NCBI GenBank assembly: GCA_015179125.1
Contig: WHVA01000033.1
Coordinates: forward strand, 358,769-422,768
Reading direction: 5' to 3'
Origin: Gautieria morchelliformis
Taxonomy: Eukaryota > Basidiomycota > Agaricomycetes > Gomphales > Gomphaceae
DNA length: 64,000 bases
Positions within the stretch are counted from its first letter, which is position 1; each line of letters opens with the position of its first letter. This document shows positions 14,444-46,420 of the stretch, in pieces. The notes below the pieces were generated by a model that saw only the letters and a program-made list of their open reading frames with translations, searched no databases and was not told the origin of the DNA. Made by a program: the position numbers and the translations under genes.

Positions 14444-14446
14444 GAC

Positions 14447-18213: not shown

Positions 18214-18218
18214 GACGC

Positions 18219-19243: not shown

Positions 19244-19268
19244 TAGTTGACCCCTATAGTTGTCTATA

Positions 19269-19279
19269 GAGGGGGAGGG
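19269..19279 (+). promoter_or_regulatory. Gypsy A polypurine tract
   Basis: The purine run agagggggaggg directly precedes the 3' LTR. It would prime plus-strand DNA synthesis and fixes the element orientation as plus. Confidence 0.75.
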
Positions 19280-19494
19280 TGTAAATAACCCATGTATCTA
19301 CATGTACAATAGTTATTACATAATCCCAGTGGGCCCCTTAGGGACCCACTGTATAGTTTATGCATGGGAACCGTCCAGCGGTTCCCATCACATCTTACTC
19401 TTACCTGTCACTACATAGCATTCAGAATACCACTCATTGGTCAAGTTCTGTAGTGCCCTTGTGATACAAGGTCTTAAGATCGACATCCTTTACA
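19280..19494 (+). repeat. Gypsy A 3' LTR
   Basis: It matches the 5' LTR with only a few transitions, the same ends and the same length (215 bp). Confidence 0.9.
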
Positions 19495-20678
19495 GGCAAA
19501 TAGGTGAACCAACAAATGTTCACAAGATAAGAGGGTTGCCCGAACGGAGCTTGCCCTATCTACAGTCGTAGTGAAATAGCCCGTGGCACTTGACGATGTA
19601 ACATGCAAGGTGTCACAGAAGGGCTGTCTAAGTAGCGACAATCCCTTCGCCGGTGAAGGTGCCCCTTCGGAGTCCTTCACCGACAGCACAGAAAATAGCT
19701 CGAAGGCTAAGGTAATGAAGATGAAGTATGAGAACTCACCAGTGATGCCTAAGTCCTCTTCTGGTTGAAGATAGAAATCTCCAGGAGAAGGCTCAAGGTG
19801 ATGATCACAGCGAGGCCAAGTTTGCACAAGATGGACAACGTATGATAATTGAACTGAGGAATGTACATGCGAATGCAAACTACTTATATCGAATGCTCGT
19901 AAGGTATTAGCGAATAGGAAAGAGGCCGTCGTGAGTCAGGGTTGGATAGGGGTGCGCAGTCATGATACTAAGTAGATGGAATAAACATACAATAGAGTGA
20001 GGGAAGAGTGCGAACATGAAACAACGGAGAGTAAAGGTGGCGAAGGCACTTATGTATGAAACCATGTCTTGGGACCTGCATACATGCTACCCTGCACGGA
20101 CTCTTCGTCTACTGGGTTGATCCCACACGACCTATGGAAGGGACGTCCTGCGAACACACTTTGGCCATATGAACACCCAAAGGGGTTGGATTGAGAAGAT
20201 GATGGGGTTAGTGATGAACCATCATGCCGGGTAAATGGTATTGATCGTATTTGATGGCGTGCCTGCTGGCGAATGATGCGAGCAGCGAATAGTCATTTGG
20301 CGAATGCAACGAAGGGCGAACAGAGAGGACATAGGGGAGGAGTGGTCGAAGTGAGGGGCAAAGCTGAGCGAAGGCGGAGGAGGTATGGCGAAAGGGGAGA
20401 CGGGGATACCAAGGTGCAGGAAATACACAAGTCATGACAATCTGATCATAGGAACACCATCGAAAGAGGGTTGAGCAGAGGAGGTGATAGGACCAGTGAT
20501 GAACCACCAAGTCGGTCCAAAGACGTCAATCGTGCGTTGATGGCGTGGCTATGGTGAGTGGCATGAACAGCGAAGATCGGTTGCCGAACAGGGCAAAGGT
20601 GATCAGAGTGAACACGGAAGTGGAGTGAGAAATGGGAGGATAGAGTATGCAAGTATGGGAAATAAACGTGTCATGACA
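19495..20678 (-). mobile_element. R1 solo LTR, right part
   Basis: R1 resumes after the Gypsy A TSD and ends aataaacgtgtcatgaca. Joined with 6174-6264 and with one TSD removed it is 1,270 bp. The right flank is GTAGG (20679-20683), the reverse complement of the R6 right flank. Confidence 0.85.
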
Positions 20679-20699
20679 GTAGGCTCAACAATATAGGAG

Positions 20700-21145
20700 C
20701 GGCCCTGATGGGGTTCAGCAAAGTCCTCCAGCCAATCAAGGAGATTAGGCAATGGGTCACAGCATCACTTGAAGATGTCTAAAATGCCCCAGAGCACACT
20801 GCCACTGGGGCTCATGCCAGCCGGCAACAGGTCAGTGCTGCCATGCTGCTAAGAACCAGTGACATGAAGAACAGGACTGATGATGCATGCGACCACTGGC
20901 CGGCCTGGTCAAACAGGATGTATGATTCAGAGATGAATCACACAGAGCTGGCTGCCTCCGCAGGCAGCTGTAAGATGATCCAACAGATCATCAGAGAATA
21001 GGTCATCTCAGACGTAGACTCTGAGACCATGGCAGAGACGGTGGGGATTCCTTTAGGGTTGTGGACTCAGGTCCCATCTCAACATGTAGTGACAGTGTAA
21101 GGTAAGGATAGATAGGGAACTGCCAGGTGGTTCCCATGCAAGAAC
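20700..21145. pseudogene. Relict of a Gypsy A relative: gag scrap plus LTR-like piece
   Basis: From 20940 to 21055 the plus strand resembles Gypsy A gag around 7480-7570 (for example aagatgatccaacagatcat). From about 21078 the sequence resembles the reverse complement of the Gypsy A LTR, including gggaactgccaggtggttccc and actatacagtgggtcc. The two parts have opposite polarity, so a rearrangement or deletion has joined them. No open frame remains. Confidence 0.5.
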
Positions 21146-21775
21146 TATACAGTGGGTCCACCCTCCCTCTATTTATAGCAGCAACTGCGATATGCAAGTA
21201 TATCACAGTTGGAATTAGTATATGGATGGGAGTGGGGGAGTATGGAACTTAGAAGAAGGAGAAAGGAGAGATGGAGGAAGACAGATCAGGTGAACAAGGA
21301 GATAGAAGATGAAAGAAAGAAACAGGTTGTCCCCTGACTGTGAGGGCAACTCTCCCTAGACAGCAGAAGCCATGTGGTCTAGTAGAGGAGGATCCAAAGA
21401 GGAAAAGCTAAGGACCTCTGCTACCAGCACACACTACCTATATACCTTGCGCCCCTGATTGAAGTCAGGGATGCCACCTCCACTTCTGACACAAGTCTGT
21501 GCTCCATGGCCCTTGCCTAACATACATGTCTCAACCCATGACCTTGGGGCCACTCCAGGATGATTCCCAGCTGAAGCTTTGGAAACTCAGCTGGGCATTT
21601 GGGTTGTGCTTGGGGTGGCCTGGACCTTGGATTGGAACTGAAGCCAAGACCAGAAATGTCCTTGGAAGGGGGTTCCCTGACACTGACAGTCTCAGTAAAT
21701 ATACAATGTGCAAGGAGATATAATGTGATCTATTTCTGTTAGGCCTCAGGGTGAAGGTATTCTTGTCTGTGGCAC
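21146..21775. other. Unassigned sequence
   Basis: No gene or repeat from elsewhere in the window was recognised here. It ends at the R4 target site ggcac (21771-21775). Confidence 0.4.
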
Positions 21776-23018
21776 TGTCATGACGCATTTATTTCCCATA
21801 CTCAGATGCTCTGTTCTCCCATTTCTCACTCCACCTTCGTGTTCGTTCCGATTGCCCTTGCCGTGTTCGGCAACCGATCTTCGCTGTTCACGCCATTTAC
21901 CATAGCCACGCCGTCAAAGCACGATCGACGTCCTTGGACTGACTTGGCAGTCATCGCTGGGCCTATCACCTCCTCTGCTCAACCCTCTTTCCATGGTGTT
22001 CCTATGATAGGATTGTCATGACTTGTGTATTTTCTGGACCTTGTTATCCCCATTTCCCCTTTCGCCACCCCTCCCCCGTGTTCGCTCGGCTTCGCCTTCC
22101 ACTTCAACCACTCCTCCCCTATGTCATCTCCACTTGCCCTTCCTCGCATTTCGCCGAACAGCCATTCGCTGCTCACATCATTCGCCAGCAGGCACACCAT
22201 CAAAACACGATCGACATCCCTACCTGGCACGATGGCTTGTCAGTAGCTCCATCAGCTTCTCGATCCAACCCCCTTTTGGTGTTCATATGAGCAGGGTGCA
22301 TTCGCGGGACGTTCTACCCGTAGGTTGTGTGGGATCAACCCAGTAGATGAAGAACCCGTGCAGGGCAGTGTATATGCGGGCCCCAAGACATGATTTCGTA
22401 CATAGGTGCCTTCGCCACCTTCACTCTCCGTCATTTCATGTTCTCCCTCTTCTCTCACTCTATTGTATGTTTATTTCATCTATGTTGTATCACGACTGCG
22501 CACCCCTATCCAACCCTGACTCGTGACGGCCTCTTTCCTATTCACTGATACCTTACGAGCATTTGATATAAGTAGTTTGCATTTCACATGTATATTCCCC
22601 AGTTCAATTATCATACGTCGTCCATCTTGTGCAAACTTGACCTCGCTGCGATCATCGTCTTGAGCCTTCTCCTGGAGATTTCTATTTTCGACCAGAAGAG
22701 GACTTAGGCATCACTGGTGAGTTTTCATACTTCATCTTCGTTACCTTAGCCTTCGAACTATTTTCTGTGCTGACGGCGAAGGGATTGTCGCTACTTAGAC
22801 AGCCCTTCCATGACACCTTGTACGTTACATCGTCAAGTGCCACGGGCTATTTCGCTACGACTGTAGATAGGGCGAGCTCCGCTTGGGCAGCCCTCTTATC
22901 TTGTGAACATTTATTGGTCCACCTATTCACCGAACGGCATACTTATTCGCACAAGTTATTTGGGCATTCGCTGTGTTCACTAATACACGATATTAACGCC
23001 CTAAAACCAATCTTGACA
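21776..23018 (+). mobile_element. R4 solo LTR (1,243 bp)
   Basis: It runs from tgtcatgacgca to accaatcttgaca with matching flanks ggcac (21771-21775 and 23019-23023), a perfect 5-bp TSD. This copy shows the normal state of the family: TG...CA ends, a 5-bp TSD and no internal genes. That is the signature of a solo LTR. Confidence 0.9.
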
Positions 23019-23615
23019 GGCACATGCCAAGGCTGCATCAAACGTGCATTACTATATCTGGCCTAGTACTCCATGCCAGACACAGCAAAGTGGATGGACA
23101 TGATGAATTACCTAATCACTAATTAAAATTAGGCACTTCGTATGGAATAACCCCTCTAGGTCCAGGGAAACTGTCTGGGCAGACTAGCAGATGATTATTA
23201 GATTTACAGTATTTATAATAGTGCATGTGATAGTGCATGTGAGTGGCTAATCAAAGGCAGGAATGTTCTCAAAACCATGTGGAAGTCCAACCACTATGGT
23301 AGTAGAAGATGCAACATATCTGTGTGCCAATAAGTGTTCCCCTGGCAACATTATATGGCCTTTCTGCATCGCATCCATGATTTGCCATGCTCAAACTTGC
23401 TGAAATCAAGCTTTGTGGACCCCTTTGCAATGACAGCGGTGTTTGCCGGCCGCCAGAGACCTATTTGTGACCAGGGTGGTATCCAGAATAAAAGTTCTGA
23501 GGGTGAGTTTAATAACCAGCCATTTTCTAGCTGTGAGTCATTTCGAAACCCAGACCCCATAGCTGTGGAAAGGATATTAGCAGATTTCATCATGTTTGAC
23601 AAATCAAGGTTACAG
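23019..23615. other. Region downstream of the NLR-like gene
   Basis: It should contain the 3' UTR of the minus-strand gene ending at 23616. No other gene was recognised. Confidence 0.4.
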
Positions 23616-26600
23616 CTACTGACGAAGTGCTTGACCGTCGAATCGTGCTGAAATGAATTCCCCGGTAGTTGCATTCCACACACGGATCGTCCAGTCATCA
23701 GACCCGGAGACGATGCGTTTGCCGTCCTGTGAGAACGCCACCGATGTGACACACCCAGTGTGGCCTTTGAATGGTGCTGAAATTACGTGCCCGCTGTCTG
23801 CATTCCACACACGGATCGTCCGGTCATAAGACCCGGAGACGATGCGCTTGCCGTCCTGCGAGAATGCCACCGAAAAGACAAAGTCGCTGTGGCCTTTGAA
23901 TGGTGCTGAAATAACCTCACCGGTGGCTGCATTCCACACACGGATTGTCTTGTCACAAGACCCGGAGACAATGCGCTTGCCGTCCTGCGAGAACGCCACT
24001 GACGAGACGATGTCGGTGTGGCCTTTGAATGGTGCTGAAATGACCTCCCCGGTGTCTGCATTCCACACACGGATCGCCTTGTCAGTAGACCCAGAGACGA
24101 CGCGCTTGCGATCCCGCGAGAACGCCACGGATGTGACGGAGTCGGTGTGGCCTTCGAGTGGTGCTGAAATGAGCTCCCCGGTGTCTGCATTCCACACCCG
24201 GATCGTCTTGTCACGAGACCCGGACACGATGCGCTTGCTGTCCTGCGAGAATGCCACTGACAAGACCAAGTCGGTGTGGCCTTTGAATGGTGCTGAAGTG
24301 AGCTTACCAGTGTCTGCATTCCACACACGGATCGTCTTGTCATAAGACCCGGAGACGATGCGCTTGCCGTCGTGCGAGAACGCCACCGACGCGACGATGT
24401 GGGTGTGGCCTTTGAATGGAGCTGAAATTACGTGCCCGCTGCCTGCATTCCACACACGGATCGTCTTATCTGCAGACCCGGAGACGATGCGCTTGCCGTC
24501 CTGCGAGAACGCCACCGACATGACCAAGTCGGCGTGGCCTTCGAATGGTGCTGAAATGGCATCCCCAGTGTCTGCATTCCACACACGGATGGTCTTGTCA
24601 AAAGACCCGGAGACGATGCGCTTGCCGTCATGCGAGAATGCCACCGACCTGACCCAGTCGGTGTGGCCTTCGAATGGTGCTGAAATAACCTCACCGGTGG
24701 CTGCATTCCACACACGGATCGTCTTGTCATCAGACCCGGAGACGATCCGCTTGCCGTCCTGCGAGAACGCCACCGACCGGACCCAGGCAGTGTGGCCTTT
24801 GAATGGTGCTAAAATGAGCTTCCCAGTGTATGCATTCCACACACGGATCGTCTTGTCACGAGACCCGGAGACGATGCGTTTACCGTCGTGCGAGAACGCC
24901 ACCGACGAGACGACGTGGGTGTGGCCTTCGAATGGTGCTGAAATGAGCTTCCCTGTGTATGCATTCCACACACGGATCGTGTTGTCATCAGACCCGGAGA
25001 CGATGCGCTTGCCGTCGTGCGAGAACGCCACCGACGCGACGATGTGGGTGAGGCCTTTGAATGGAGCTGAAATTACGTGCCCGCTGCATGCATTCCACAC
25101 ACGGATCGTCTTGTCTGCAGACCCGGAGACGATGCGCTTGCCGTCCTGCGAGAACGCCACTGACGTGACCCAGTTGGTGTGGCCTTTGAATGGTGCTGAA
25201 ATGAGCTCCCCAGTGTCTGCATTCCACACACGGATCGTCTTGTCATCAGACCCGGAGACGATGCGCTTGCCGTCGTGCGCGAACGCCACTGACGTGACCC
25301 ACCCTGTGTGACCTTCGAATGGTGCTGAAATGAACTCCCCGGTGTTTGCATTCCACACACGGATCGTCCAGTCAGCAGACCCGGAGACGATCCGCTTGCC
25401 GTCATGCGAGAACGCCACCGATGCCACGGCGTCGGTGTGGCCTACCAGAACGGTTTGAATAGGTGGCCACGTCGTCGCTTTCCCGGTCTCGATGCGGAGT
25501 AGTCGTGGAAATCGTGGGAGGTAAGTCTTGCTTAGTTTCGAACTTTCAGGCGCGAACGGGAGTGCCGACAAATAGAGATGGGGAGCACTCTGAGAGATTA
25601 CACTCCCAAACGCACCTATAAAATGGCGGGTATCCGTTACGAAAGCTGCAATGTCATTATCCTGAAGTTCATTAGACTAACGTCGAAGCTCATAACAACT
25701 TGGGTACACACCTGACTCCAGTGCATTATTGACGAGAGTGCTGCCGAAGCATCGGGTACCTTCTTGATCAGGCTCAAAACTTCCAGCCAGTAGAGTAGCT
25801 TGGTCTTGAAGAACTGCTTGACCTTTGCACCTATACCCGGCGTAAAGGTGGTGGCGCGAACATGGTCCGCCCAAAAACGGCAAGAGTAGGAAAGTTGTGG
25901 AGATATATACTTCTTAGTCCGTGTCGCCAAGTCGACAACGTCGTTGTTACGCAGATGTGAAGTTTCAAGATGACAAATGTTGAAACAAAGCTCATCCTTC
26001 ATCACGCGCAAACATGAGAGCGCAAGGCCTTCATGGTGTAACGATGTGTCAATGTAGTATTGTCCACTCCGGCCGCGATCTGTCAAGAAGTCACGAAAAG
26101 ACGTGTGCAGCAGGCTGATTGGATCAGAGTCTTGAGTAGGAAGGCTCAGCAGAGCCCCCATGGGTCCAACTATTGCATGAACCTCGGTACCCGACTCGTC
26201 TCCATTGCACAGCTTCTGCAGGGCAGACACCGAGAGCGGTTCTCTGGCAATCAGGATGCAGCCCATCACCAAGCGAAAGCGGTGCTTGACATCGTCCGTC
26301 AAATCATCGCCATCCCCGAATATCTGCTTGAGGATACCAAGATACAGGTCATCCATCCCACGGAGGTTCTTTTCTAAAAGTCCCTCCAGCTGCTTAACGG
26401 CAACGCGACCACCCTTCCCATCTCCTTTGACAAATCGACAAGCCGTGGACGCCCATTGAAAGTGACCTTCAGAGTTCTCAACTAATAATCGACACCAACC
26501 ATTGTTGGGCCATTTGCGCTCGAGGGCCGTAATGTTACCTAGTTGATCTTTCACAAAGCGGGCGACGGCATCGGCAGGGTCCGGGTCAATATCCTTTAGG

Positions 26601-28562
26601 GACTTGGAAAGCACGTGCCTCTTCCCAAGCAGGGCGCCCTGGATGTCTTTTTCGGCACGGGAGGTGATGAGAACGCGGAAGTTAGGTGGCAGTTGTGCTG
26701 CTTCTTTGCCCAGGACAGACAAGACAGCCCGGCGAGATTCCAGGTCTCCGCTCTCATCCAATGCATCAATAACGATCACGATCGGTCCAACAGCCGCTAT
26801 GTCCTTGGAGGGGTCCAGAATGAACTTTTGGAACTGCTCACGAGGTACCCGTGTGGTCCGAAGTGCTTTCTGCTCCCCGACGACTTTCAGCAACGCTGCT
26901 TTTCGTTCTGGATCCAGATCGGCCAGATCATGAGCAATCGTGCTAAAGAGATTGTCGGGGGATCGCTGTGCCTGAAGAGCGCGGTCAAAAAAGTACGACG
27001 ACCCGAGACGTTTGATGCTACTAAGTCGTTTAGCGACCTCGTGGGCGATGGCAGACTTGCCGGCACCCGCAACATCGTTCAATAAAAATATCCGTGGCGC
27101 GTCCTCCCTATCCTGGTTCACCCAATCCCAGATCTCCGCAATAGCTGTCTCCCGGGTATCCCGAAGACATCCCTTTTCAGGGTTGAACTTGGCACCGTCT
27201 GCGTAGGGCATGTCATTCAGCAGAACTGCTTGAGCTGGTTGCAAGGTGTATTAGGGTCGGGAAAGGCCCAAAGTCAGAAAACTCACATAGGTCGCCGATG
27301 GCATCCAGAACACGTAGTACAGTGATTTCAGTATGAAGCACGGCATGTTGTTGTAACTCCGACCTGAGATTCTTGAACGTTTCCCGGTATTGTTCGACCT
27401 TGCTGTCGACATCCAACCATAGATTTTTCACGGTCCTTTGCCCTGAACAAAGATCGTCAGCTATGACCACCTGACAGTGGGTTCAACATACAGAATCCCT
27501 TGTTTTTTGCGTAGGCGCGAATAAAGTAGCTGCACTCTAACGTCTGTTGCACCAAGGATAGGATAATTGACTTGTGCGACTCAATTTTCTTCAACGGCTC
27601 TGTCTGATCGACGAACTCATAGGTGTCTCCAATAATTTTCGCCAGACCATGAATGCTATCGTCCCGATCCATCTGATCAATGATCGTCTAAATAGTGTCG
27701 ACCCCAGATGTCAGCCATATCTATCCGCTTGGTGTATGCCATATATGTACCATATATGCAAGAGACAAGATGGACCATGCCATTTTCGCATAAGGATGGG
27801 CCTAGAATAAGCACACTGTGTCAATCAGATAACATGGGAGACGACCAACCTAACGATACCTCTGAAGCCTTATCCACAATATTGGTAAACAGCTTGATCT
27901 TGCGCAGCAGGGGATCCCAAGCCGCCACTATTGGATCGGTAGTATTGGTGCTCGAAGCGACCCAGTTGACCACATTCCGTACACAAGTGATTAGGGACGG
28001 CGGCGGGTTCATATTATCGACCACTCTCGTTCCACTGACGGCTTCGCTCAACTCGGCCTTATGCGCCTCGTCGGACGTCGCGAAAGACGTGAGGGTGAAC
28101 TCTAGGACAGTCAGAAGCTCATGCATCTTCCCTGCCTTATCTGATTTTTGCAGTTTGCGAACAATGGCTGCTATGGTCGATGATTACGCGTGCATTCCGT
28201 CGACGAGCGAAAAGGACTGACCTCCAGTCCCCTCTTCTGCAAGCAGCAAACTAATCCGTTCCTTCGCACCGCCTATGTAGTCCTCATGTCCGATGGTATG
28301 ATGTCCATATACTTCAATTTCCAACATAGAAGACCGAGTCAAGTGGAAGCTGCGGATGGAGTTAAGATCACATTGAGGCACTAACGCTGGAATTCACGCA
28401 CAAATAGAATGGCTCATTCCACGAGGCAGTATTGCCTCTCGCAGAAAACGCAGTTTTCTGGGGGATGTCCTTATCGACGACGAGTTTCACGAAGCAGTGA
28501 CTAGGACGCTTGCCGAACAGTGTGACATTGGGAAGATGGGTGCATCTCAAGTCTGTTGCCAT
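23616..28562 (-). CDS. NLR-like receptor: C2 domain, NACHT NTPase, 14 WD40 repeats
   Basis: Eight exons fit: 28562-28402, 28349-28222, 28170-27860, 27801-27751, 27687-27492, 27442-27287, 27234-25712 and 25661-23616. All phases agree, for 1,523 residues; introns are about 50-65 bp. Residues 5-95 resemble a C2 domain (FVKLVVDKD...LEIEVYGHH). Residues 97-334 are a helical linker with PYAKMAWSILS and ECSYFIRAYAK blocks known from such proteins. The NACHT NTPase has its P-loop VAGAGKSA near 390-396 and Walker B IVIVIDALDES near 486-496. From about residue 913 come 14 nearly identical 43-residue WD40 units, enough for two seven-blade propellers. Fungal NLRs of this architecture (het-d/het-e type) act in self/non-self recognition through ligand binding by the WD40 part and NTPase-driven oligomerisation. 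The frame looks intact. The 5' splice site of intron 1 (GTGCGT) is the least certain. Confidence 0.85.
23646..25451 (-). repeat. 14 tandem 129-bp WD40-coding units
   Basis: Each unit encodes a version of GHTxxVxSVAFSxDGKRIVSG, then SxDxTIRVWNAxTGxxISAP. The framework is almost invariant; differences cluster at about eight positions per unit. The blocks around units 3-4 and 8-9 are alike (SGHVISAPFKG then THIVASVAFSHDG), suggesting duplication of several units at once. High DNA identity means the count may vary between alleles and may be mis-assembled. Confidence 0.92.
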
Positions 28563-29390
28563 GGCCAAGAGTCAGTATACAATAGATAGTGTAAATGAAA
28601 GAGCCTTTCTTGCAACTTTGATTGCTGCGGGAATACTTCGGGGTGGAGAGTGAACAGTTGGCTTACTAGAGAAGTAATCGTGGACTTACGCTACCGTGCC
28701 CTTATCATTGCCCTTAACGTTGTACATTGTTCGCAGTGATGGGTGGTAGGCGGAAAAAGACGACGAGAGGCGCCGTATGGCACTGCGTACTTCGGACCTG
28801 TCATCAAAGACATAACATCGAAGCCTGCGGCGCCCACGTCACGGTGGTCTCGGCGTCTAGATGAAGCGCCCGTCGATCATCACGTGGCTCCGCACGAACT
28901 TGCAGCCCGTGTACCAGATACATATAAGTATACCCGCACTGGCCTCCAGACTCCCGTCGCGCAGGAGGCCGACTCGAGGTTGCTGTTCCTGTAAACCTGA
29001 CTCGCAGCGGCAGGGTCGCGCAGACGAGCAGCGTTGCCAGACGGACGACTGGAGCGCGTTGGACCGTCTCCATGATGCTTATTCAGTGATTATGATCGTT
29101 TGAAACGATTATAACATAATATACGGCAGCCACAAGCCTGCCTGCACATGCGGCTCCCACTGTTCCCGGCGTCCAGATTAAGCGCCCGTTGATGTGGCTC
29201 CGTAGGTACTCGGCCGTCTTCGTAAGTACAGCTGGTCCGTGTCTCAGAGGCAACGCGGTTACATATCATGTCGCCTTGCTGTGAGTGAGCTCTGTGCACC
29301 GCCTGGGCAAGTTTCGTGGATCCGTTGTCGCGCCCACAACATGTGCACCACCGCAAGTAAGCATTTCACCCACGTCAATCCAGGTCATAC
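28563..29390. other. Region upstream of the NLR-like gene
   Basis: It holds the promoter side of the minus-strand NLR gene. No TATA box or other gene was recognised with confidence. The sequence becomes C-rich after 29150. Confidence 0.4.
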
Positions 29391-30494
29391 ATGCAGCTTT
29401 ATCGACCTGTTCCAACATCTAGTGCCCAGGTACCATCCCCAAAGCCGTCCGCTCCCAGACCTCCAAACGCGACACTTATCCCTTCGGTCCATCTCCCCTC
29501 CCAACTTTTCCAGCTTCTCCAAATTCTGTCAAACACCGTCCATGGCCACCAACTTCCGAATCGTCCTGTCCCAATCCGCCCGCAAATGGCTCATCCTCCG
29601 TTTCCCGCCAGCGTGTCCCTCTATGACTCCGACATCCCGCTCTCTTTCAGGCGTTTCACCAGCCCGGTCGCCCAAAACCCAAATCCACCAGTTCCCAGCT
29701 CCATACTCAGCACAAGCCCCAAACCTCCAAAGACTACAACAACTCCGCCTGGTGGCAGCCCCACAAAAGTTAGTGCCACCCTCCTAATGGTAGCTCCACA
29801 AAGCCCTCGCCCAATCACATCGCGACACGGCTCCAATGTCGCCAATATCGGCCCATTTCCACCCGTTCCTTGGTCGTCTCATGGCGCACTGGGACGACTC
29901 AGTGCAAAGCTTTCGCCGATTCGTCCCACCTTCATGCGCCCCAACGAGCAAGATGTCGACCCCTTGACGTCACACAGCCCACAGGCCAGAAATCGTAAGC
30001 CGAAATACCCCTTTCACTCCAGCTCATAACTCGTTAATGTAACCTCACCACGTCACTAAACCCTTGCTCAGTGCTCGTCTTCCTCAAGCCGCAACCAATT
30101 CTCTCTTGCTTGAAACACGGCATCTAGTGCCAATATTCTCCCTACTAGCCTAGCTGGATTTCAATTCATCGCTCCCAATGCTCTTCCACCGAAACCGCGG
30201 TTGGAATCTGGTCGCTTTGCCACTCAAAATCGTGGTCCTTACTACAATGCCGCCTTCGGGCCTCGTGTTCTTGCGAAAACACTTGCCCTCACCGAGCCCT
30301 GGGAACGGGCTGAAGTTTGCAGGGGTATAGAACGCGTCCTGGCAACCAGCAACGACCGCATGCGCCACGTTGAGCGGTATGTTAGGCGTTGCAAGGACCT
30401 TGCATTTGACGTCATTGAGCTCTCCACGGGTTCTTGTCGTTGCCAGTTGAGGACTGGGCTGAACTTGTACAATGCGTACAGCGGCCAGGTGTGA
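29391..30494 (+). CDS. Possible Pro/Ser-rich hypothetical gene, two or more exons
   Basis: A plus-strand frame at 29391-30029 is rich in Pro, Ser and Thr and lacks repeats. A gtaagc donor at 29995 could join it to a frame ending at 30494 that includes NRGPYYNAAFGPRVLAKTLA and RHVERYVRRCKDLAFDVIEL, which looks like a folded protein. An acceptor at 30152-30153 would keep the frame but gives a 159-bp intron, long for this genome. C-rich DNA alone can create such frames. No family was recognised. Confidence 0.35.
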
Positions 30495-30944
30495 AAACCA
30501 AACCAGAGCTGTGAATTCAACGGGGCGCCAGCGGCCATGCTAGTATTGCGGATTTAGAAAGTGCAGGGACGTCCAATGTGGATGGGCGGATCGACGGCGC
30601 AAAACCCTACTGGATGAAGGGGCCGAAATTTTCATGATTCGAAGTGAGGGTATCACGGAGAACGTGAGCGCATAGCATTGTTATTCAACGACGGTCTCTC
30701 TCGTACTTATTATTCGGTCGCTTCCATTCACCAAGCTTGTGTTTGAAGCTGTCGATCCGAAAGTCTTCGAATAGTACATCCAGAATCACGGGGTCGATGT
30801 TAACCTATTTATCGACCACTCCCCAGCGGTGCAGCTTGCGTGTCTTGGAGCTTGAATTTGGGGAATGAACCAAACATTTTGCGAAGTTTGTCAACTTCCG
30901 GGACTGGAAGGGTATATAAATGAGTATTGAGCCCAGCCAACGGT
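30495..30944. other. Unassigned sequence
   Basis: No gene was recognised. A TATA-like gtatataaatg lies near 30910, just before the truncated Gypsy C begins. Confidence 0.35.
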
Positions 30945-31738
30945 GGGAGGTTGACTCAACCCAGACTACACCCTTCATGTTGGACAGTGGCCAACATCCA
31001 AGGCTGGGACTGTAACCAGTCCGGGAAACTCAACTCGAGGCCCTGGATGAGTTCACAACGCGGATGGAAGTGGCCACAAGAGAAGCTTGTTCAGCCCTGT
31101 CCAAGGCAGCAGAGGACATGCCATGCTTCTATGATGTGCACCATAAAGCAGCCCCAGTTTATAATCTTGGTGACAAGGTCTGGCTCAATGCACAAAAGAT
31201 CACAACCACTCGCCCAATGAAGAAGCTAGACCACAATTGGCTAGGCTCCTACGCTGTTAATAAGGTGGTCTCACAAAATGCCTATGGTCTAAATCTTCCT
31301 GCATCCTTTGGTCGCACACATCCAGTGTTCTCTGTTGTCCTGCTTTGGCCATATGAAGATGACCCAATTCTTGAACATCATGCCCCTCTAGCACCCCCCC
31401 CTATCATACGGGATGGAGCCGAAGAATATGAAGTTGAAAGGATTCTAGACAGCAGGATGTTCCGTGGAAGGTTGGAGTATCTCGTGTGCTGGAAGGGCTA
31501 TGGAGCTGCTGACGATCTCTGGCTACCGGTCAAAGATGTCTCTGGGGCAAAGCGACTCATTAAGGAATTTCACAGGCAGAACCCAGAGGCACCTCAGTGT
31601 ATCTCAGCAGCCACATACATGTCCCTCCCCTTCCAGAGATTTCAGAACTTCACAGAACCTTCCAGGCAAACTCTCTTCAACTGGACAGCAGGCAGGGCTT
31701 CTACTCATAATGTCAAGGGGCCAGAACCCCAAAGATAA
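30945..31738 (+). pseudogene. Gypsy C integrase C-terminus with chromodomain
   Basis: The frame begins inside the integrase (STQTTPFMLDSGQHPRLGL, then a stop at about 31015) and continues through the SH3-like part (YNLGDKVWLNAQ) to a chromodomain (EEYEVERILDSRMFRGRLEY, then LVCWKGYGAADDLWLP). The element is truncated at its 5' side. Its polarity is plus. Confidence 0.8.
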
Positions 31739-31844
31739 GTGATATCGGCCTCCGCCTAACCAATTCATTCTGATAAGCTATATATCCCCTCTCCACCTGT
31801 GACCACTCACTTCCACTGCATCGACCCCACCACATCCATCAACC

Positions 31845-32441
31845 ATGTCCTCACCCACTATTGAGCTTGTTGCCCTCCCCAGCTTCACCCAAAACCTCTC
31901 TGACCTGCCAAACATGTCACGTGTCGATCCCACCCTCCTGCACTTCTCCAGCTTCTCATCATCCAGAGCAGCCAGTGAAGCCAAGCTACAAAGGATGCTT
32001 GACTGCCGTGATCTCGATGCTGCATGGTCTTCAAAGTGGTCCATCAGCTCTGAGGACATCACACCAGCGAAGAGTCAGGCACCCACTTGCCCTGCACTCG
32101 CATTCTTCAGACCCTGACACAGACGAGAGAACACCTACTATGTCAGTGACCCTGTCTTCCTCAATGATGGAACCCCCCCTTGTGGAACCCCCTACACTTT
32201 TGAAGGCTGGGTGGGGCGGCGTTTCCGTAACATGGCAGGAGAGCGACTACGTCGAGCAAGGTTCCAAGGGCCGCACTTGCCCATGGACCCCAATCCCCCT
32301 GAGATCATCATTGACCTGCACTACCAGGAGGGGAAGAGCCAGGAGAGATGGTGTTCCTGCCTGTGGCATACTTGGAAACGATGTCTCGGTGGATGTTGGG
32401 GGCTAGGTGGCAGCTGTGCTTGTCAGGACGACAAGCATTGA
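31845..32441 (+). pseudogene. Gypsy C accessory ORF between chromodomain and 3' LTR
   Basis: It starts MSSPTIELVALPSFTQNLSD, has one TGA at 32115-32117, and goes on as HRRENTYYVSDPVFLNDG and FEGWVGRRFRNMAGERLRRA to a stop at the polypurine tract. It occupies the same relative position as ORF3 of Gypsy A, but the two show no evident similarity. Function unknown. Confidence 0.5.
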
Positions 32442-32449
32442 GAGGGGGG
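32441..32449 (+). promoter_or_regulatory. Gypsy C polypurine tract
   Basis: The run agagggggg immediately precedes the LTR start TGATGTCAGG. The same arrangement occurs in Gypsy G and Gypsy H. Confidence 0.65.
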
Positions 32450-32712
32450 TGATGTCAGGGTTCACGTGTTTCCTTCCACAAGTTTCTGTTTCCTTCCATG
32501 AGTTTCCATCACCTTCCGTGACCTTCTACAAGTTTCCATCTCCCCTATTATGTAAGCCTTGCCAGCGCTATAAGACTGTAGCTAGTGTGGTGGCATTTCC
32601 TCAGCTTGATCTCTGAGGATACCCACTACACAGTTGGTTATTGTCCTTGCATCGGCCGTTATCTCCTTGAGTATCTTTAGGTTGTGGCTTCGTCATTAGT
32701 GTTGCCCTCACA
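32450..32712 (+). repeat. Gypsy C 3' LTR (about 263 bp)
   Basis: It starts TGATGTCAGG and ends GTTGCCCTCACA, like the LTRs of G (GTTGCCCTTACA) and H (GTTGCCCTTATACA). The three therefore belong to related families. Confidence 0.65.
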
Positions 32713-33339
32713 GATTCTCCCTTGGCCGTTGAGTTTTGTACTCAAAAAAAAATCTGTTAGTCCATAGTCTTGAAATTTCGACATATCAGCTGGAGTAAGT
32801 GCTTAAGTACATGTTGTAAGGTAATTCTATGTTGTCAATATGTACATGTCAAGAATGTTGTCCACAACCTGGCTATCCAGTATAATATCCACATATCCAC
32901 AAACATAGGTGCGTTGATTCGATTTTTTGGTTATATGTAATTTTACAAGGGAAATTCTTTGGTGTTCCCTGGTCAATATTGTGGATTAACATCTGAGTGT
33001 ATTATGGGTTTCCCTATAAGTTACTCGTGTGTATGCCATGAATACGTTTCTGGCACATAAATTTCCACAAGTTTAATATTCGTGGAAAATACAAGAGTAT
33101 ATAGTGGACATGTCAAGTTTTTCCACCTTCTGTACCGGCATATCCAGTAACTGGTATATCAGGCACCGTCCACATGTGGGAATACCAGAACACTTGCTGG
33201 GCTGTCCACACATTTCACTCATGGATTATCCAAATATTATATGGGGTGTTTTTTCCCACCGTGGTGGATGGATTTTCATGCGCACCCTTTCAACGCTCAG
33301 CATGCCGTATGCTAACTTATGCAATTTCACCCCAATCTT

Positions 33340-33585
33340 TATCAGAAGCCTTGTGGAGCAGTGGGATAAAGTGCTGTTGAGTAAGCTTGTTTATGGTAAG
33401 GTGGTGGGTTTGAATCTCGCTGCAAGTACAATTTTCTACAGTCCAATCAGTCGTTATGTATCTACGTCGTGGTAATGTCATATGTGTATCCGTTCAGCGG
33501 TGTTGAGGTTTGAGTTGAGTATACGGAAAGTAAACTAAATAATGTTGTCCTTTGGTTGTTTTTTATTTCTTTTTTTTGTGGTAGT
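33340..33585 (+). ncRNA. Possible tRNA-derived SINE-like unit
   Basis: An A-box-like tggagcagtgg (33354-33364) and a B-box-like ggtttgaatct (33407-33417) are spaced as in tRNA genes. The B-box region can fold as a T-arm (gtggg/ctcgc with wobble pairs). A T-rich run near 33575 could end pol III transcription. The acceptor and D arms do not pair, so it is not a functional tRNA gene. Confidence 0.25.
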
Positions 33586-33777
33586 AGCCATTGATAATCC
33601 AACAATTATTGATGGTATTTCCCTTAGAAGAATTAATGGATCATCCTACACATATGTCAATGGATATTGAATCCACGAAAAAAATGGCCTTATGGTGAGT
33701 GGATAGTCCATGTGTTGTACATGGATTCGGACATGGACCCCTGAGCGGCCGGTGGACTTACCATGAGAGGGATGTTG

Positions 33778-33832
33778 TGGATGGTCCACCACCGGACTGG
33801 TGGAGTGACCTCAACTGGTGGTGGACCATCCA
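33778..33832. repeat. Perfect inverted repeat, 16-bp arms
   Basis: The arms tggatggtccaccacc (33778-33793) and ggtggtggaccatcca (33817-33832) are exact reverse complements with a 23-nt spacer. Confidence 0.85.
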
Positions 33833-34084
33833 CCAAAATCGGGTGTGGATGTTCCACCAATTTATCAGGGAGTTTGTTCCCGCAGTGTCGAGGGCTCTGT
33901 GCTCTGCCCACAAATCATGCGAAGGACTCAGATTGGAGATGTTCCAGTACAACAACATGGATCCATCCACAAGTGAATGAAAACCACTGAACAGGGGTTC
34001 GGACAGCTTTCACAAGTAGCCAGGAATGTCCGAATAATGCTACATAATTCTGTCAATAAGAGCTAAAACAGAGTCTCAGATGAT

Positions 34085-35009
34085 TCGGTTGTTATAGGCA
34101 AACTCAGCCAAGGATATCCATTTGAACCAATCATCCTGACACTGGTTGATGAATAGTCAAAGGTATTGCTCAATCTCCTGATTAACCCTTTCAGTCTGTC
34201 CATCAGTTTGGGGGTGATAAGCAGTAGAGGCAGCGACTTTGACACCAAGAAGTTTGTTCAGTTCACGCATGAACTGGGAGATGAACTGTGTGCCTCAATT
34301 GCTGATGATTTCTTCAGGGAGCCCATGAAGTTTCCAAACATGATCACGGAAGAGTTGGGCGACTCCCACCGAAGTTACATCTGAAGTGGTGGGAATGACA
34401 TGTGCACGCTTTGAGAGGCGATCAACGACAACAAGGAGAGCATCATAGCCATGACTGGTAGGCAGTTCTACGATCAAGTCAACAGACATAACCTGCCATC
34501 TACGGTCTGGGATACGGTTTGGTAGAAGCTTGCCAATGGGAGAAGCAGGGAAGGTTTTTGTCTGGTTGCACAGGTCACAGGCCTTCATGTATTTTGTGAT
34601 GTAACATCCCATCCCAGGCCACCAGTAACTCTGAGCAACTAGTTCAGTAGTTCTCCAATGACCAGGGTGACCGGTGAGAGGCATGTCATGGTGCGCTTTC
34701 ACTATGTCATGTCATAGTTTTGCATCAAGCGGCATGTACACTTTGTTGTGATAGAGGACAAGCCCATCCTGTTCAGATCACTCTTCTCCTCATAAATTTC
34801 CAGAGGGGCCCAGTTCTTTGAGAGCCTTGACAACCTTTTCATCCCAGTCTACACAGTTCCTTACTCAATTGAGGAAAGCATCACCTTCACCTGGGACTAA
34901 CTGCAGGCCAGCCTCTGGGGGATTCACCTTGATGTGGAACAAGTCAGGGGTAAGTAAGACTTGATTTTGGTTGTCTTCCTCCCCCCGCTTATGATCCACG
35001 CGTTGTGAG
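34085..35009 (-). pseudogene. Gypsy B integrase and RNase H-integrase linker
   Basis: From 35009 leftwards the frame reads QRVDHKRGEEDNQNQVLLTP as the linker, then the HHCC zinc region (GHPGHWRTTELVAQSYWWPG ... CDLCNQTK) and the core (VMSVDLIVELPTSHGYDALL). After a TGA near 34295 come [19 protein letters not shown] and [20 protein letters not shown]. The stops (near 34295 and 34162) fit CGA-to-TGA change. The gene is lost after AEFAYNNRII near 34085, so the chromodomain and 3' LTR are missing. Confidence 0.8.
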
Positions 35010-35699
35010 TGTCATAAAAAGACCCGTAAGCTATCACTGCCATCACAATACGCCGAACCGCCGCATATACACCGTCCCGTGTCTCACACATACCTTCACC
35101 CACATCACCCACATCTACCCGACCACACACACGTCCGCAAGACATATCATGTTATTCCCACCATTCTACTGATACGACCCTGACCCAATGCCCACGGATC
35201 CACTCAACCTGAGTCAGAGCCCGAGCCCAAGGGGCGCTGATCCACGGAGGAGCTAGTCGTTGAGCCACACGTCTACATATCTTCCATGTTATTTCCCTCA
35301 TTAATTCACAACCCATCTTTCTGATGCATATGACTACCTACACCCCTTCTGATTCGATACATCGATTCCCTAGCTACCGCTGTCCCCGGACCACCGTATT
35401 CCCGAGTCCAGACGCATCAGTCGACCCATGTGTTCCCCCTCCACTCTTCACGCCGCAGCACACCTAGTAGCTAGTTAAATAGTTCAGCATGTGTACAAAG
35501 ATTCTCTAGTCAATTAGAACTCACATTCTTGAAGTAACTTGGTACCTTGCGACACATATACTTGCGTAGTTGTCACTGAAGAGCATACACACCTTGTGTT
35601 TACTCTATCTATCCATTTTTACGACTCCACTCGATTTGACTTCAAACCGAAGTCTGAATCTACATCTAATTCATCATCAGCTGCTCTTAAGCTTTCACA
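35010..35699 (+). mobile_element. L: solo LTR (690 bp) inserted in Gypsy B
   Basis: It begins TGTCATAAAAAGACC and ends CTTTCACA with perfect TSDs gtgag (35005-35009 and 35700-35704). Removing it joins PDALS to QRVDHKRGEE in frame. Its 3' part (actccactcgatttgac ... attcatca) resembles the end of the Copia D LTR, so it is probably a Copia solo LTR. Confidence 0.85.
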
Positions 35700-36225
35700 G
35701 TGAGAGTGCATCAGGCTTGGCTGAATGACAACCAGGACAATGGATCAGCTCAAAATCAAAGTGAGAGAGGTAGAGTGACCAGCGTGCTTGACCACGGTTC
35801 AGGTTTTGTGCAGTGTGGAAGTAGGTGAGATTCTGATGGTCATTGAGAATCTCAATCTTGTACTTCGTTCCCTCTAATATGTGGCGCCATTCCTCTAATC
35901 CCCGAATCACAGAAAGAAGCTCCTTGTCATGGATGGCATAGTTGTGTTCAGCATCATTGAGGCTTTTGGAGACAAACCCCACAGGCTGCCATTTGCCATC
36001 ATCACATAGCTGGGACAGTACTGCTCCTGTGGCATAGGCCGAGGCATCTGTTTCAAGACGGAAACACTTGTCTTGATCAGGGAGGACAAGGATCGGTGTT
36101 GAGGTGATGAGGAGTTTGAGCTTGTCAAAGGATGCTTGCTCTGGGACATTCAGATCCCAAGACCATTGGGCATCCTGTTTTGTCAACTGGTTGAGGGGCT
36201 TTGCAATGTGTGAGAAGTCTTCCAC
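35700..36225 (-). pseudogene. Gypsy B RNase H
   Basis: The frame includes CFRLETDASAYATGAVLSQL, AIHDKELLSVIRGLEEWRH and RGQARWSLYLSHFDFELIHC, the expected RNase H order, and ends at the L insertion. It overlaps the end of the RT frame, with a shift near 36230. Confidence 0.85.
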
Positions 36226-37579
36226 AAATCGACGGTAGAAGTTGATGAAACCAAGGAATGATTGACTTCAGTGACGTTATGTGGTATTGGCCAGTCCCGC
36301 ACTCCTGCAACCTTGACTGGGTCCATGGCAACCTGTCCTTGAGAGAGGATGAGGCCAAGATACTCCACCTCTAGTTGCTCAAATGGGCATTTTTCAGGTT
36401 TGAGGTACAGGTTGTTGGCCCGGAGGATTTCAAGGACACGTCGTACAATCCTATGATGTTCTTCAAGCGACTCTGTGAAGATGAGAATGTCGTCCATGAA
36501 CACCACCACAACCCCTTCATCGATGAGACTCTTGAAGATGTCATTCATGATCGTCTGGAAGGTTGCTGGGCTGTTCGTGAGTCCAAAGAACATGACTAGA
36601 GGTTCATACAGGCCCCTATTTGTCCGAAAGGCTGCCTTCCACTCATCTCCCTCTTTTATGCGTACATTATTATATCCCCAGTGAATGTCAAGCTTTGTGA
36701 AGTATTTAGCCCTTCCAGCAGCAATCTTATTCATGATGTCTGGAACAAGGCACAAAGGATAGGCATTCTTGACTGTTATATCATTGAGCTTCCGGTAGTC
36801 TTGCACAAATCCAAGACTGCCGTCCTTTTTCTTCACAAAGAAGACTGGAGATGCCATAGGTGACTTGGAAGGACGGATACGATGGCCCTTCAGGTTCTCC
36901 TCAAGGAAGTTATCCAGTTCCCTTTGTTCAACCGGTGACATTGGGTAAACCTTTGTGCTGAAGGGTTGTGCACCTGGAGTGAGCTCAATCACATGGTCCC
37001 AGGGCTTTCGAGGAGGCAGTTGGTCAAATGACTCCTTAGAAAACACATCCTTGAACTCCTGGTATGGTTTAGGGACAAGGTCCTTGAAGGATCTTACTGG
37101 TGCAGACTTGCTGGCCCGTTCAGCAAGCTGTTGGGTGACAGTCCAGCCTGCGCCAATCGTTTCAGGACTCTCATTCACAAAGATGACAAAGGTCCTGTCT
37201 CCTTCCTCAAGTAGGGAGCGGGTGTGCTGTATGGGAACCTCCTCTTGATCTACACTCTCTTCTGGAACAGTTTCGACTGTGGGCCCTCTGACAACAGGTC
37301 TGCCCCCACATGACTTGGGACAGCGTGTCATCTTCACATCTCCTGTATGCCAGTTAACTTCTGGGTTGTGTTCAACAAGCCATGTGTGACCAAAGAATGA
37401 TGGCAAGTCGTCCAAGGCTTGTGACAGAGAATGTGGCACGTTCTGTATGATCCCCAAAGGTGCAAATGAGGTCGACTTCTTCCTTGATTGAGCCAGCCTC
37501 ATTTGGGGTACCATCAATATTGTAGACAGGGATGGCACGGGGTAGGGGATGGGTCCGAAGTCTGTGTTCCCTTACAAAC
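36226..37579 (-). pseudogene. Gypsy B reverse transcriptase and end of protease
   Basis: After the protease tail (FVREHRLRTHPLPRAIPVYN) and a frame shift near 37440 comes a linker, then [39 protein letters not shown] and the catalytic VVVVFMDDILIFTES (FMDD variant of YMDD), followed by YLGLILSQGQVAMDPVK. A shift near 36260 breaks the thumb region. RT copies the element RNA into DNA. Confidence 0.85.
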
Positions 37580-37586
37580 TCTACAT

Positions 37587-38127
37587 TGATGTGTTGGGTG
37601 CATATGTGCACCAGGCTCCAAACCTAACATTTCTGTTGTTATTTCTTTCGATTTTGACCTGAAACTATGCTGACATTCATTCTATGCCTTTCACAATTTT
37701 CTTTGATTTTTTCGAGGCTGTATTACTACTCTTTTTCATGTTCTGTCCAACCGACCCTTTGTGGGTGCTTGTGGACAAGTTTCCTTTTTGAGCTGCGGCT
37801 GTTCACTAACGTGTTACGTTCTATGGGCGCTTAGCACGGCACACCAGTGCCTCAAGGGCGCTTAAGTGCCGGAACTTCGTATATGCGAGTGAAACAAGCC
37901 CATGCGCAGCCTCCCTCCTCAGTGTTGACTATCACTGAGGAGGTGAGTTTAATAGTGTACTTTTATAGTATGAAACTGAAAAAACATGTAGAACATTAAA
38001 TAGGTAGCATTCCTTTATATTACTAGTGTTGACTATCACTGAGGAGAACATTAAATAGTTTACTAATCTCCTGCAAGTCCCATCGTTCATATCTGGCATA
38101 TAACTTCCTACTTGCCCAAACCAAGTT
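37587..38127. mobile_element. T2: 541-bp hairpin-bearing insertion in Gypsy B protease
   Basis: It is flanked by the 7-bp direct repeat tctacat (37580-37586 and 38128-38134) and splits the protease between DSGATGMFI and NVEFVREH. It contains gggcgcttaagtgccgg (37856-37872), then a perfect hairpin with 11-bp arms (37914-37924 and 37933-37943) and an 8-nt loop. A second copy of gttgactatcactgaggag starts near 38028, with gaacattaaatag also repeated. It has no coding capacity. The 7-bp TSD does not fit an LTR element. Confidence 0.65.
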
Positions 38128-38134
38128 TCTACAT

Positions 38135-38353
38135 GATGAACATCCCTGTAGCACCACTGTCAAGGAGGGAGTCAATTGCAAGTGGATGCCCTGTGTCAAC
38201 GGAGTGGACCTTGAGAGGTTTTGGTGCATCGGTGGAGGTCAGCAGTACGGACATATAGAGGGACTGGAAGGTTTGCATTAGCAACTGGAGCGATGGGTTG
38301 GGTTTTTGGTATGGCTGGTTTGGTTTCAGTTCAATCAGGGGTAGGAGAAGCAT
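38135..38353 (-). pseudogene. Gypsy B protease, N-terminal part
   Basis: The frame contains HPLAIDSLLDSGATGMFI with the catalytic D-S-G-A triad region. It is cut by T2 immediately afterwards and resumes at 37579. Confidence 0.75.
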
Positions 38354-38709
38354 GCATCATATCGCCTGTGATCCCTATTGTACATGTTTTGAGAACTGAG
38401 AACCGATTCATCGAGCAAGGCATGTCTTTCACCACTGACTGGCCTAAAAACCCTTTCCTTCCTCTTGGACAGGGGCTTCCACCTTCTGTTTGCGTTCCTC
38501 CATCAACACTGCTACAGATTTAGAGACAATTGCTGCAATGTCTGCCTCTGTGAGGTTTGCACGGATTTGTGGCTTGCAAGGTTCAGGACAGTCTGGTGAA
38601 ATGTGACCAGGTCTCTTACAGTTGTAGCAGGTCCGTGTTTCGGTATGGTGGTGGGATGAGTCAATGTCCATAGGTGTCGCATTACTGGGTGGTGCTGTGA
38701 CAACAGGAG
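38354..38709 (-). pseudogene. Gypsy B gag, C-terminus with zinc knuckle
   Basis: It contains CYNCKRPGHISPDC (C-x2-C-x4-H-x4-C), the nucleocapsid zinc knuckle, followed by a Glu/Lys-rich tail. The segment ends at the R5 target site. Confidence 0.8.
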
Positions 38710-38714
38710 CCGTA

Positions 38715-39748
38715 TGTCAGGATTGGTTCTTAGCTGTTAATATTGTGTATTAGTGAACACAGTGAATGCCCGAATGACTTGTGCGAATAAGTATGCTGTT
38801 CGGCGAATAGGTAAACCAACAAATGTTCACAAGATAAGAGGGGTGCCCAAGCGGAGCTCGCCCCATCTACAGTCGTAGCGAAATGGCCCGTGGCACTTGA
38901 CGATGTAACATACAAGGTGTCACGGAAGGGTTGTCTAAGTAGCGACAATCCCATCGCCGGCAAAGGTGCTCCTTCGGAGCCCTTCACCATCAGCACAGAA
39001 AATAGTTCGAAGGCTAAGGTAACGAAGATGAAGTATGAGAACTCACCAGTGATGCCTAAGTCCTCTTCTGGTTGAAGATAGAAATCTCCAGGAGAAGGCT
39101 CAAAACGATAATCACAGTGAGGTCAAGTTTGCACAAGATGGACGACGTATGATAATTGAACTGGAGAATATACATGCAAATGTAAACTACTTATATCGAA
39201 TGCTCGTAAGGCATCAGCAAATAAGGAAGAGGCCATCGTGAGTCAGGGTTGGATAGGGGTGCGCAGTCATGATACTAAGTAGATGGAATAAACATACAAT
39301 AGAGTGAGGGAAGGGTGCGAACATGAAACGACGACGGAGAGTAAAGGTGGTGAAGGCACTCATGTACAAAACCATGTCTTGGGACCCGCATACATGCTAC
39401 CCTGCACGGACTCTTCGTCTACTGGGTAGATCCCGCACGACCTACGGAAGGCACGTCCCGCGAACACACTTTGGCCATATGAACACCCAAAGGGGTTGGA
39501 TTAAGAAGATGATGGGGTTAGTGATGAACCATCACGCCGGGGAAATGGTATCGATCGTATTTGATGGCGTGCCTGCTGGCAAAATGTGCGAGCAGCGAAT
39601 AGCAGTTCAGAGAATGGGGCGAAAAGTGGATAGAGTGGATGTAGAGGAGGAGTGGTCGGAGGGTGAGGCGAACTCTGGCGAAGATGCTAGGGAGTGACAA
39701 GGGGGAACATAGAGGCAGTGGGGTAAGAGAAATAGACAGGTCATGACA
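38715..39748 (-). mobile_element. R5 solo LTR, short form (1,034 bp)
   Basis: It begins tgtcaggattgg and ends ggtcatgaca with perfect TSDs ccgta (38710-38714 and 39749-39753). It interrupts Gypsy B gag. Its terminus corresponds to an internal tgtcatgacctgtgt block lying about 240 bp inside the longer R copies. Confidence 0.9.
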
Positions 39749-39753
39749 CCGTA

Positions 39754-40122
39754 TCAGGAGTGTGGAGTGGTCGGGCAGGAGGAGGGTGATTAGGAACATG
39801 AGGTGTCTGTGCCTTCCTGACCTCTAACAGACGGCGATGATTGCGGTCAATCTGACAGGCTGCTTCCTTCCAGCCTTTGAGGTTGGGCGGAAGAGAGGGC
39901 TGGGCATGGATCTTGTCAAGGATACCTGCTGGAAGGCCACGAGCATAGGCATCCTCGAGTGCCTCATCATTAAAGCCTGTCCTGCCTGCCAGGATCTCAA
40001 ATTGAGCCATGTATTCATCTGCCGACATTCCTGATGTCATCCTGAGGTCATGCAGCTTAGTGCGAGCCATTCTGGCACGATCTGGGTCCCCAAAGGCCTC
40101 CTCCAGAGTGTATATAGAGGAG
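39754..40122 (-). pseudogene. Gypsy B gag, middle part
   Basis: The frame reads SIYTLEEAFGDPDRARMART from 40122 down to HPPPARPLHTPD at R5. It is the continuation of the plus-strand gag fragment that ends at 6173. It keeps retrotransposon gag features (LHDLRMTSGMSADEYMAQFE, WKEAACQIDRNHR). Confidence 0.85.
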
Positions 40123-40239
40123 TGTCATGACACGTTTATTTCCCATACTTGCATACTCTATCCTCCCATTTCTCACTCAACTTCTGTGTTCACTCCGATC
40201 GCCCTTGCCCTGTTCGGCAACCGATCTTCACTGTTCGTG
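40123..40239 (+). mobile_element. R6 solo LTR, left part (split by S2)
   Basis: It begins tgtcatgacacg. The left flank AGGAG (40118-40122) is the reverse complement of the R1 left flank, not a match to its own right flank. Confidence 0.88.
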
Positions 40240-41769
40240 TGTTTTGGAACCCTTCAAGACTTTGGTGTTATTGCTAACGCCTCTGTCTATCAGAACGTGT
40301 CGTTTACACGACTAGTAGAATACCAGTTCAATGCAGCAGCACAACTCCGGAAATAATTTAATATTTGTACCTTGGTTGCAGTCTGTGTAATAACTAGTCC
40401 AAGTTATTACAGCTGGAAGGCAATGCGTTTCTTAGCTGCACTGAACAATAAACTAAAAGGGTGTGTAGGTTCAAGGACACTATCGGGGTCCAAGAGTATT
40501 CCTTTTAATAAAGAGGGAATAGGCTCCGCAGGAGAGTTTGTAAGTGGATTGGGTCGACCAACGTCAATGCACTGCAATAACGAGAGAGTAATGTGAAGTG
40601 GCTTTCGCGCACAACTTGACTTGACTTGTGAAAGTCACTGAACAGGAAAATCAACTGAACAGCTCGTCTCAGGTATTGGAGTGCTAATTGACAAGAAAAT
40701 CGATTGCCAACCTCACTCTGTAGAGTTTCACCCAGGGTGTTAGGCTAAGTGGCTAAGCAGTAAAGCAACTACTTAACTAAGAATAGTTACTCTAAGCAAG
40801 AGTAGTATTCTAGTTCGGGTTAGGAACTTAGGTAAGATGTGCAAGTCACACAAGCTGTGTAGGATAGAAGATGGGTAGATTGATTGCTCAAATGGCAGGC
40901 AAAGGGCCTCCTTTTATGTTGTAATGTACAAGGGCTTAGTAAGCAGGTAGAACCTCCTATCTATTAATGGAATGGGGGAAGAAGCTTGTGGAAGATAGAA
41001 GAAAGGGTTGGAAGACACTGGCTGTTTCCAGGGGACTCTACCATGCTTCCTACCAATCAGAGCTTGATTTGTCAGGAATGACTCACTGAAAAGGGTCATG
41101 TGTCATGGCACAGCTTGGCTGAGTCATGTACTCCTGACTCTCCAAGTTGTGCCTGGATTGGTTGAGTCATTGAGGCTGTATCTCCAGATAACCATGTATT
41201 TGGCACTCAGAAGCTGAGTAAGTTCTGAGCCAATTAGGGCTCTGTAGCCATAATTACTAAGAGCACTGCTCAGCACAGCTGAGCATAGCCTGGTACAGCC
41301 TAGTTGTCATGACTGACCATGATCCCCATTGTTTGGTGAAGCCAAACAGGCTGCACAGTTGCTATGGCTGCATATAGCAACTGTTTGGGACTCAGCTGGA
41401 AATACTGAGAGAGCCATCCTGCCGGACTTGTGGGTGCTTGGGTGACCATAAGTCCGAAAATGCGGCCGCCGCCGAGGTGCCCGGCGGAGTTTGAAATAGA
41501 GCGCCCGGAACAGAGTTGTGGGTGCTGGAGGATCCACAACTCTGTAATGACAGAAAAATGGTAGTTTGAGCCATGGAGACTTTGGAAAAATAAGGAAAAA
41601 TATGAGATAACTAGAGGAATGTTTGAAAAGCCTTTCCCCAGTTGTATTAACAGCATAAAGATACTGTTAATTCTTCAATTGTGTTTTTACATATTGTCAA
41701 GACAAAAAGGAAAAGACTAGGGCTGGTTGAGCAGCCTTCCTTGGCTGGTTGAACAGCCGTTCCCCTACA
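40240..41769 (+). mobile_element. S2: solo LTR of family S (1,530 bp) inserted in R6
   Basis: It begins TGTTTTGGAACCC and ends CCCCTACA with perfect TSDs tcgtg (40235-40239 and 41770-41774). It is homologous to S1. No coding region was seen. Confidence 0.88.
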
Positions 41770-42928: not shown

Positions 42929-43265
42929 CCTACCAACGATATACTCGTGTTTGTGGCCCATGAGGGTGTTCCTGTGCATGGCCTTCCATCACAGCCACTG
43001 TCTCATTGTTGATGACATTTGTTCTCAAGCTCTTTTGACTTGAGCTCGAGTACTCTGAACTAGGTCCTTGTCATTGCTAGCTCTCTTGTTTAAGTTACAT
43101 ATAATCATCACAAATACTATAATTATAATCATGCTTGCTAACTACAAAGTTTGGTTCTGTTAGTGTATATACCATTTCATACTGAGACATTATTGTGGAA
43201 GATAATCCAGACCAGTAGTTGAGAATATAATTCCAGTAAAATTATAGATTCCCTTTATGTTGTTT
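42929..43265. other. Short unassigned sequence
   Basis: No gene was recognised. Before the second inversion this DNA would have adjoined the sequence now at 20679. Confidence 0.4.
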
Positions 43266-46410: not shown

Positions 46411-46420
46411 GACACTCACC

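Follow-up and report, generated by a model that had tools for sequence, protein, structure and literature searches.

Features of the locus

The window that we analysed is a stretch of 64,000 nt from Gautieria morchelliformis (GCA_015179125.1, contig WHVA01000033.1, positions 358,769-422,768 of the forward strand), and it contains six copies, R1 to R6, of a repeat that we call R. The features on which the analysis turns are given below in coordinates of the window.

6169-6173, + strand: CTCCT, left flank of R1; target site in the gag of element B, present as a single copy there in 10 of 10 sampled paralogues
6174-20678, + strand: R1, LTR-like repeat of ~1.27 kb in two pieces (6174-6264 and 19495-20678) with a nested element between them
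6265-19494, + strand: nested LTR element N, within R1; 215-bp LTRs at 6265-6479 and 19280-19494, flanks GGCGA/GGCAA
8282-9555, + strand: R2, flanks GTCCG and GCCAG
9556-15364, no strand: putative second inverted block, R2 to R3, containing the pol region of element N in reverse
15365-16639, - strand: R3, flanks CGGAC and CTGGC; exchange partner of R2
20679-20683, + strand: GTAGG, right flank of R1
20679-40122, no strand: inverted block, 19,444 bp between R1 and R6; the exchange point lies somewhere within R
21776-23018, - strand: R4, perfect target-site duplication (TSD) GGCAC
23616-27250, - strand: NACHT (NPHP3_N) and WD40-repeat gene, in two ORFs of different frames, wholly within the block
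38715-39748, + strand: R5, a shorter form of R, perfect TSD CCGTA
39754-40122, - strand: another portion of the element B gag, moved and flipped by the inversion
40118-40122, + strand: AGGAG, left flank of R6
40123-42928, - strand: R6, in two pieces (40123-40239 and 41770-42928) with a 1.5-kb repeat between them
42929-42933, + strand: CCTAC, right flank of R6

R is a repeat of ~1.27 kb that starts with TGTCA and ends with TGACA. Both the TG..CA ends and a 5-bp target duplication are found, and on the strength of these ends and of the length of the duplication we take R to be a putative solo LTR. R4 and R5, inside the block, keep normal duplications (GGCAC/GGCAC and CCGTA/CCGTA, respectively), as the first-pass annotation had noted. 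R5 stops at an internal copy of the 3' end motif of R and, since it is shorter yet carries a perfect duplication of its own, it seems that the 3' end of R can fall at either of two places. R6 is interrupted by a 1.5-kb TG..CA repeat (40240-41769, TSD TCGTG).

Elsewhere in the genome both ends were readable for 20 R copies, whose flanks are perfect in 13, nearly so in two and mismatched in five. These copies derive from three sets: paralogues of the GTCCG junction (seven readable; four perfect, one with 4 bp, two mismatched), paralogues of the CTGGC junction including the extended C840 locus (six readable; five perfect, one with a single mismatch) and a pattern search in which seven of the 16 copies fetched were readable (four perfect, three mismatched). 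The remaining nine pattern-search copies, where a 3' end was not recognisable, were dropped, as were CTGGC-set copies with one end fetched. R flanks match as a rule, and mismatched copies are frequent enough to point to other rearrangements. A candidate third inversion, on C840, was rejected, the extended locus proving to be a perfect fold-back of at least 225 bp together with an R copy whose CTATC flanks match. The fold-back itself (C840:773-4106, L002 and L137, arms of at least 225 bp) lies near the contig start and is probably an assembly or library artefact.

Exchanged target duplications at R1 and R6

Sequence comparison establishes R1 and R6 as reverse-oriented copies of one repeat family. 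R1 is flanked by CTCCT and GTAGG while R6, read in the same direction, is flanked by GTAGG and CTCCT, an exact reciprocal exchange. All four pentamers (CTCCT, GTAGG, AGGAG and CCTAC) lie where the first-pass annotation had placed them, and its reading of the flanks as swapped is borne out by a simulation in which each trial consisted of six copies with random 5-bp flanks drawn using the base composition of the window. At least one reciprocal pair was obtained in 4 of 400,000 trials and two reciprocal pairs in 0 of 400,000.

A second argument made at the outset was that reversing the block restores a split gag frame. At the R1 target site, once emptied, the frame of the element B gag does continue from one half into the other. 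The gag carries other damage, however: a 421-bp repeat with imperfect flanks (5709-6129, TTGGG/ATGGG) interrupts it independently of R1, lying 44 bp upstream of that site, and 21 bp that all 10 sampled paralogues have are missing from the right half.

Uninterrupted insertion sites in paralogues

If the block is inverted, what stands left of R1 was once adjacent to the reverse complement of what stands left of R6. The gag flank (39780-40122), used as a query against the same genome, yielded 40 scored places, with the window among them. Of the other 39, 10 were examined in stretches of 201-230 bases: the nine top-ranked ones and C337, picked for an extra partial match. In each of the 10 the two flanks of the window are contiguous, and the 5-bp target, CTCCT, occurs once. 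The CCTAC site was sampled at five places matching the start of the R6 right flank; both sides adjoin in three of these, with a spacing of 5 bp in two and 4 bp in one, and the reverse of the R1 right flank was not found beside the R6-type flank in the other two of the five. For C737, one of the three, two separate searches jointly place both window flanks of this site in the same direction, 5 bp apart. The CCTAC-site paralogues carrying both sides are more distant, ~69-84% identical over the matched stretches.

R1 and R6 have exchanged duplications, and both of their insertion sites are found uninterrupted in paralogues; together these observations support the 19.4-kb inversion between the two copies that was originally proposed. 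The uninterrupted state of both sites and the target duplications also give the direction of change: it is the arrangement in the window that is derived.

A probable second inversion within element N

Element N, which splits R1, is 13.2 kb in length and its two 215-bp LTRs have 6 differences. It contains R2 and R3, whose flanks bear the same signature as those of R1 and R6 and point to a second inversion, of the 5.8 kb between them. At each of the two junctions we sampled 10 of the 39 other scored places. At the GTCCG-type site all 10 run on into sequence that is reversed in the window, at 15359 and below, and at the CTGGC site all 10 continue into 16645 onwards, with L119 diverging ~40 bases further on. 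An initial query, 16645-16944, was unhelpful, 39 of the 40 best matches starting at base 49-59 where another repeat begins, and it was replaced. C782, C227, C228, C307 and C693 carry both search stretches in the same direction with 3.3 to 6.3 kb between them, and C695 likewise with 12.5 kb; in C848 and C249 they are too distant for comparison. The reverse transcriptase of element N lies on the minus strand at 12529-13911 and, because the paralogues are contiguous across the R2/R3 junctions, the pol part of N appears to be reversed in the window.

The R copies are younger than the elements that they occupy. With N inserted in R1, and R2 and R3 in turn in N, the R2/R3 inversion must be later than the insertion of R1. 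Divergence, at ~4% for R1/R6, 2.8% for the LTRs of N and 1.4% for R2/R3 (18 of 1274 positions), weakly favours a later date for the R2/R3 event, since conversion resets clocks of this kind.

Origin of the inversions

Recombination between R1 and R6 is, with high probability, the best explanation for the arrangement. Two older repeat elements would each have received an R copy, the two copies facing opposite ways and each insertion generating a 5-bp duplication. Homologous recombination within the ~1.27-kb R, by a crossover or an equivalent inverted-repeat repair event, would then have exchanged the flanks and so reversed the ~19.4 kb between R1 and R6. The same process, acting separately, would account for the reversal of the 5.8 kb between R2 and R3. 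We infer that a single homologous event was involved, with the exchange falling somewhere within R.

Several comparisons bear on the exchange point. Of the 40 copies scored, out of 4239 first-look candidates, none matches R6 better than R1 does across the central 1072 bp, with C670 narrowly behind, while across the 3' 114 bp R1 is slightly outscored by three others. The middle of the R1/R6 pair is closer than the ends (37 differences in 1067 positions vs 15 in 203, p 0.018); a crossover or conversion tract was considered as the source of this contrast and dropped because a similar excess at the 5' end is seen in the control pairs R1-L007, R1-L005, R6-L007 and R6-L005. For R2/R3 the corresponding values are 9 in 1069 and 9 in 205 (p 0.0008), a stronger contrast and one that is absent from the R2-L018 pair. 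The near-identical middle of R2 and R3 resembles a conversion tract, and consensus polishing could produce the same pattern.

The first-pass annotation regarded the inversion as proven. This holds for the sequence as assembled. A misjoin inside R, by which an assembler flipped the segment between similar copies while the living genome is uninverted, would produce identical exchanged flanks. The finding of two exchanged pairs in one window, leaving four of the six R copies unmatched vs five of 20 mismatched elsewhere (and two more imperfect), would fit such a misjoin, as would the fold-back near the start of C840, from which it seems that the assembly may contain some palindrome-type artefacts. 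However, there are no Ns in the window or in 136 loci (261,112 bases), with nested high-copy repeats and tandem arrays running gap-free, and the resolution of nested repeats without gaps points to an assembly built from long reads. R1 and R6, moreover, show 52 differences in 1270 positions, 48 being transitions, so that the copies are separable, and the stretches that would need bridging measure 1.2 kb (19495-20678) and 2.8 kb. Nor is there a near-identical second copy of any flank among the scored places, the next-best matches being 97, 84, 98 and 74% identical. An assembler flip is in our judgement unlikely.

It is also conceivable that the R1 and R6 flanks arose in separate steps, such as a translocation and return, or truncation and decay, rather than in one inversion. 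Other rearrangements or decay do happen, as the five mismatched copies among the 20 elsewhere attest, and for two mismatched copies, C670 and C781, an exact-pattern search gave no reciprocal partner among the seven readable of 16 candidates fetched. The R1/R6 flanks, however, match reciprocally and exactly, lie on one contig and have the orientation that an inversion demands, and we consider separate steps to be very improbable. Recombination between R1 and R6 remains the preferred reading.

The NACHT-WD40 gene in the inverted block

The block carries a gene whose product matches the NPHP3_N model above the cut-off (E 1.1e-24) and the NACHT model below its cut-off (E 3.7e-4), with WD40 matches in 14 stretches. 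The WD40-coding part includes a tandem array at 23629-25476 with a period of 129 bp, 13 registers of which are 78-88% alike to the reference. The split of the gene between two frames is perhaps more likely to reflect a frameshift than a short intron, in keeping with the usual pattern of the family. Over the NACHT part (25700-26900, 1.2 kb) the window copy and 39 scored others, of 265 first-look candidates, are 87-91% identical; with at least 40 similar copies over this part (identity at least 87%), the gene is one member of a large family.

The first-pass annotation drew attention to the flipping of a candidate immune-receptor locus. The gene does indeed lie inside the block, but the significance attached to it is reduced by its being uncut by either breakpoint (the nearer block end is 2.9 kb away and the farther one 12.9 kb), by its having at least 40 copies and by its split frame. 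An effect of the inversion on the gene, if there is any, would be a position effect. We think it very unlikely that the R family provides dense inversion points at which NLR-like segments flip repeatedly, with both orientations present in a population or among nuclei and with consequent position effects.

Relation to known systems

The R1/R6 inversion is a new, and unusually well documented, example of a known process, ectopic recombination between LTRs. Mismatched duplications were reportedly used in a like manner by Hughes and Coffin in 2001 for human endogenous retroviruses. In yeast, crossover between inverted Ty1 elements causes inversion (PMC9879454); inverted copies of one retroelement family on the same chromosome arm reverse the segment between them, as we propose here, although the Ty1 events were induced by a cut and followed directly, whereas ours is an old natural event, deduced after the fact, between copies of LTR size. 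For Mycosphaerella fijiensis, 125 LTR elements with differing 5' and 3' insertion sequences were set aside and 515 analysed (PMC3562529), and in the portion concerned unmatched target duplications are likewise taken as ectopic recombination between elements; the partners are left unpaired in that portion, whereas in the present case we can name both partners and their uninterrupted sites. For Candida albicans, breakpoints in long inverted repeats are described for inversions spanning ~4 to 103 kb (PMC6591007); in contrast to the present case, eight of nine lie in ORF-containing repeats and some were checked by PCR in isolates.

The locus provides a clean case, partly ordered by nesting, of dispersed LTR-like copies causing inversions in a transposon-rich genome, and illustrates how target duplications and uninterrupted paralogues can reveal inversions, and their direction, from a single assembly. 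It also serves as a warning that element dating and comparisons of gene order in such regions must include a check for exchanged flanks.

Two further features were noticed in the window. A copia-type element occupies 45659-51718, with 737-bp direct repeats that are 97.8% identical and gag, integrase and RT domains between them, and at 56635-57264 some 30 to 40 units of 15 bp form a tandem array that adjoins an ORF containing a chromodomain.
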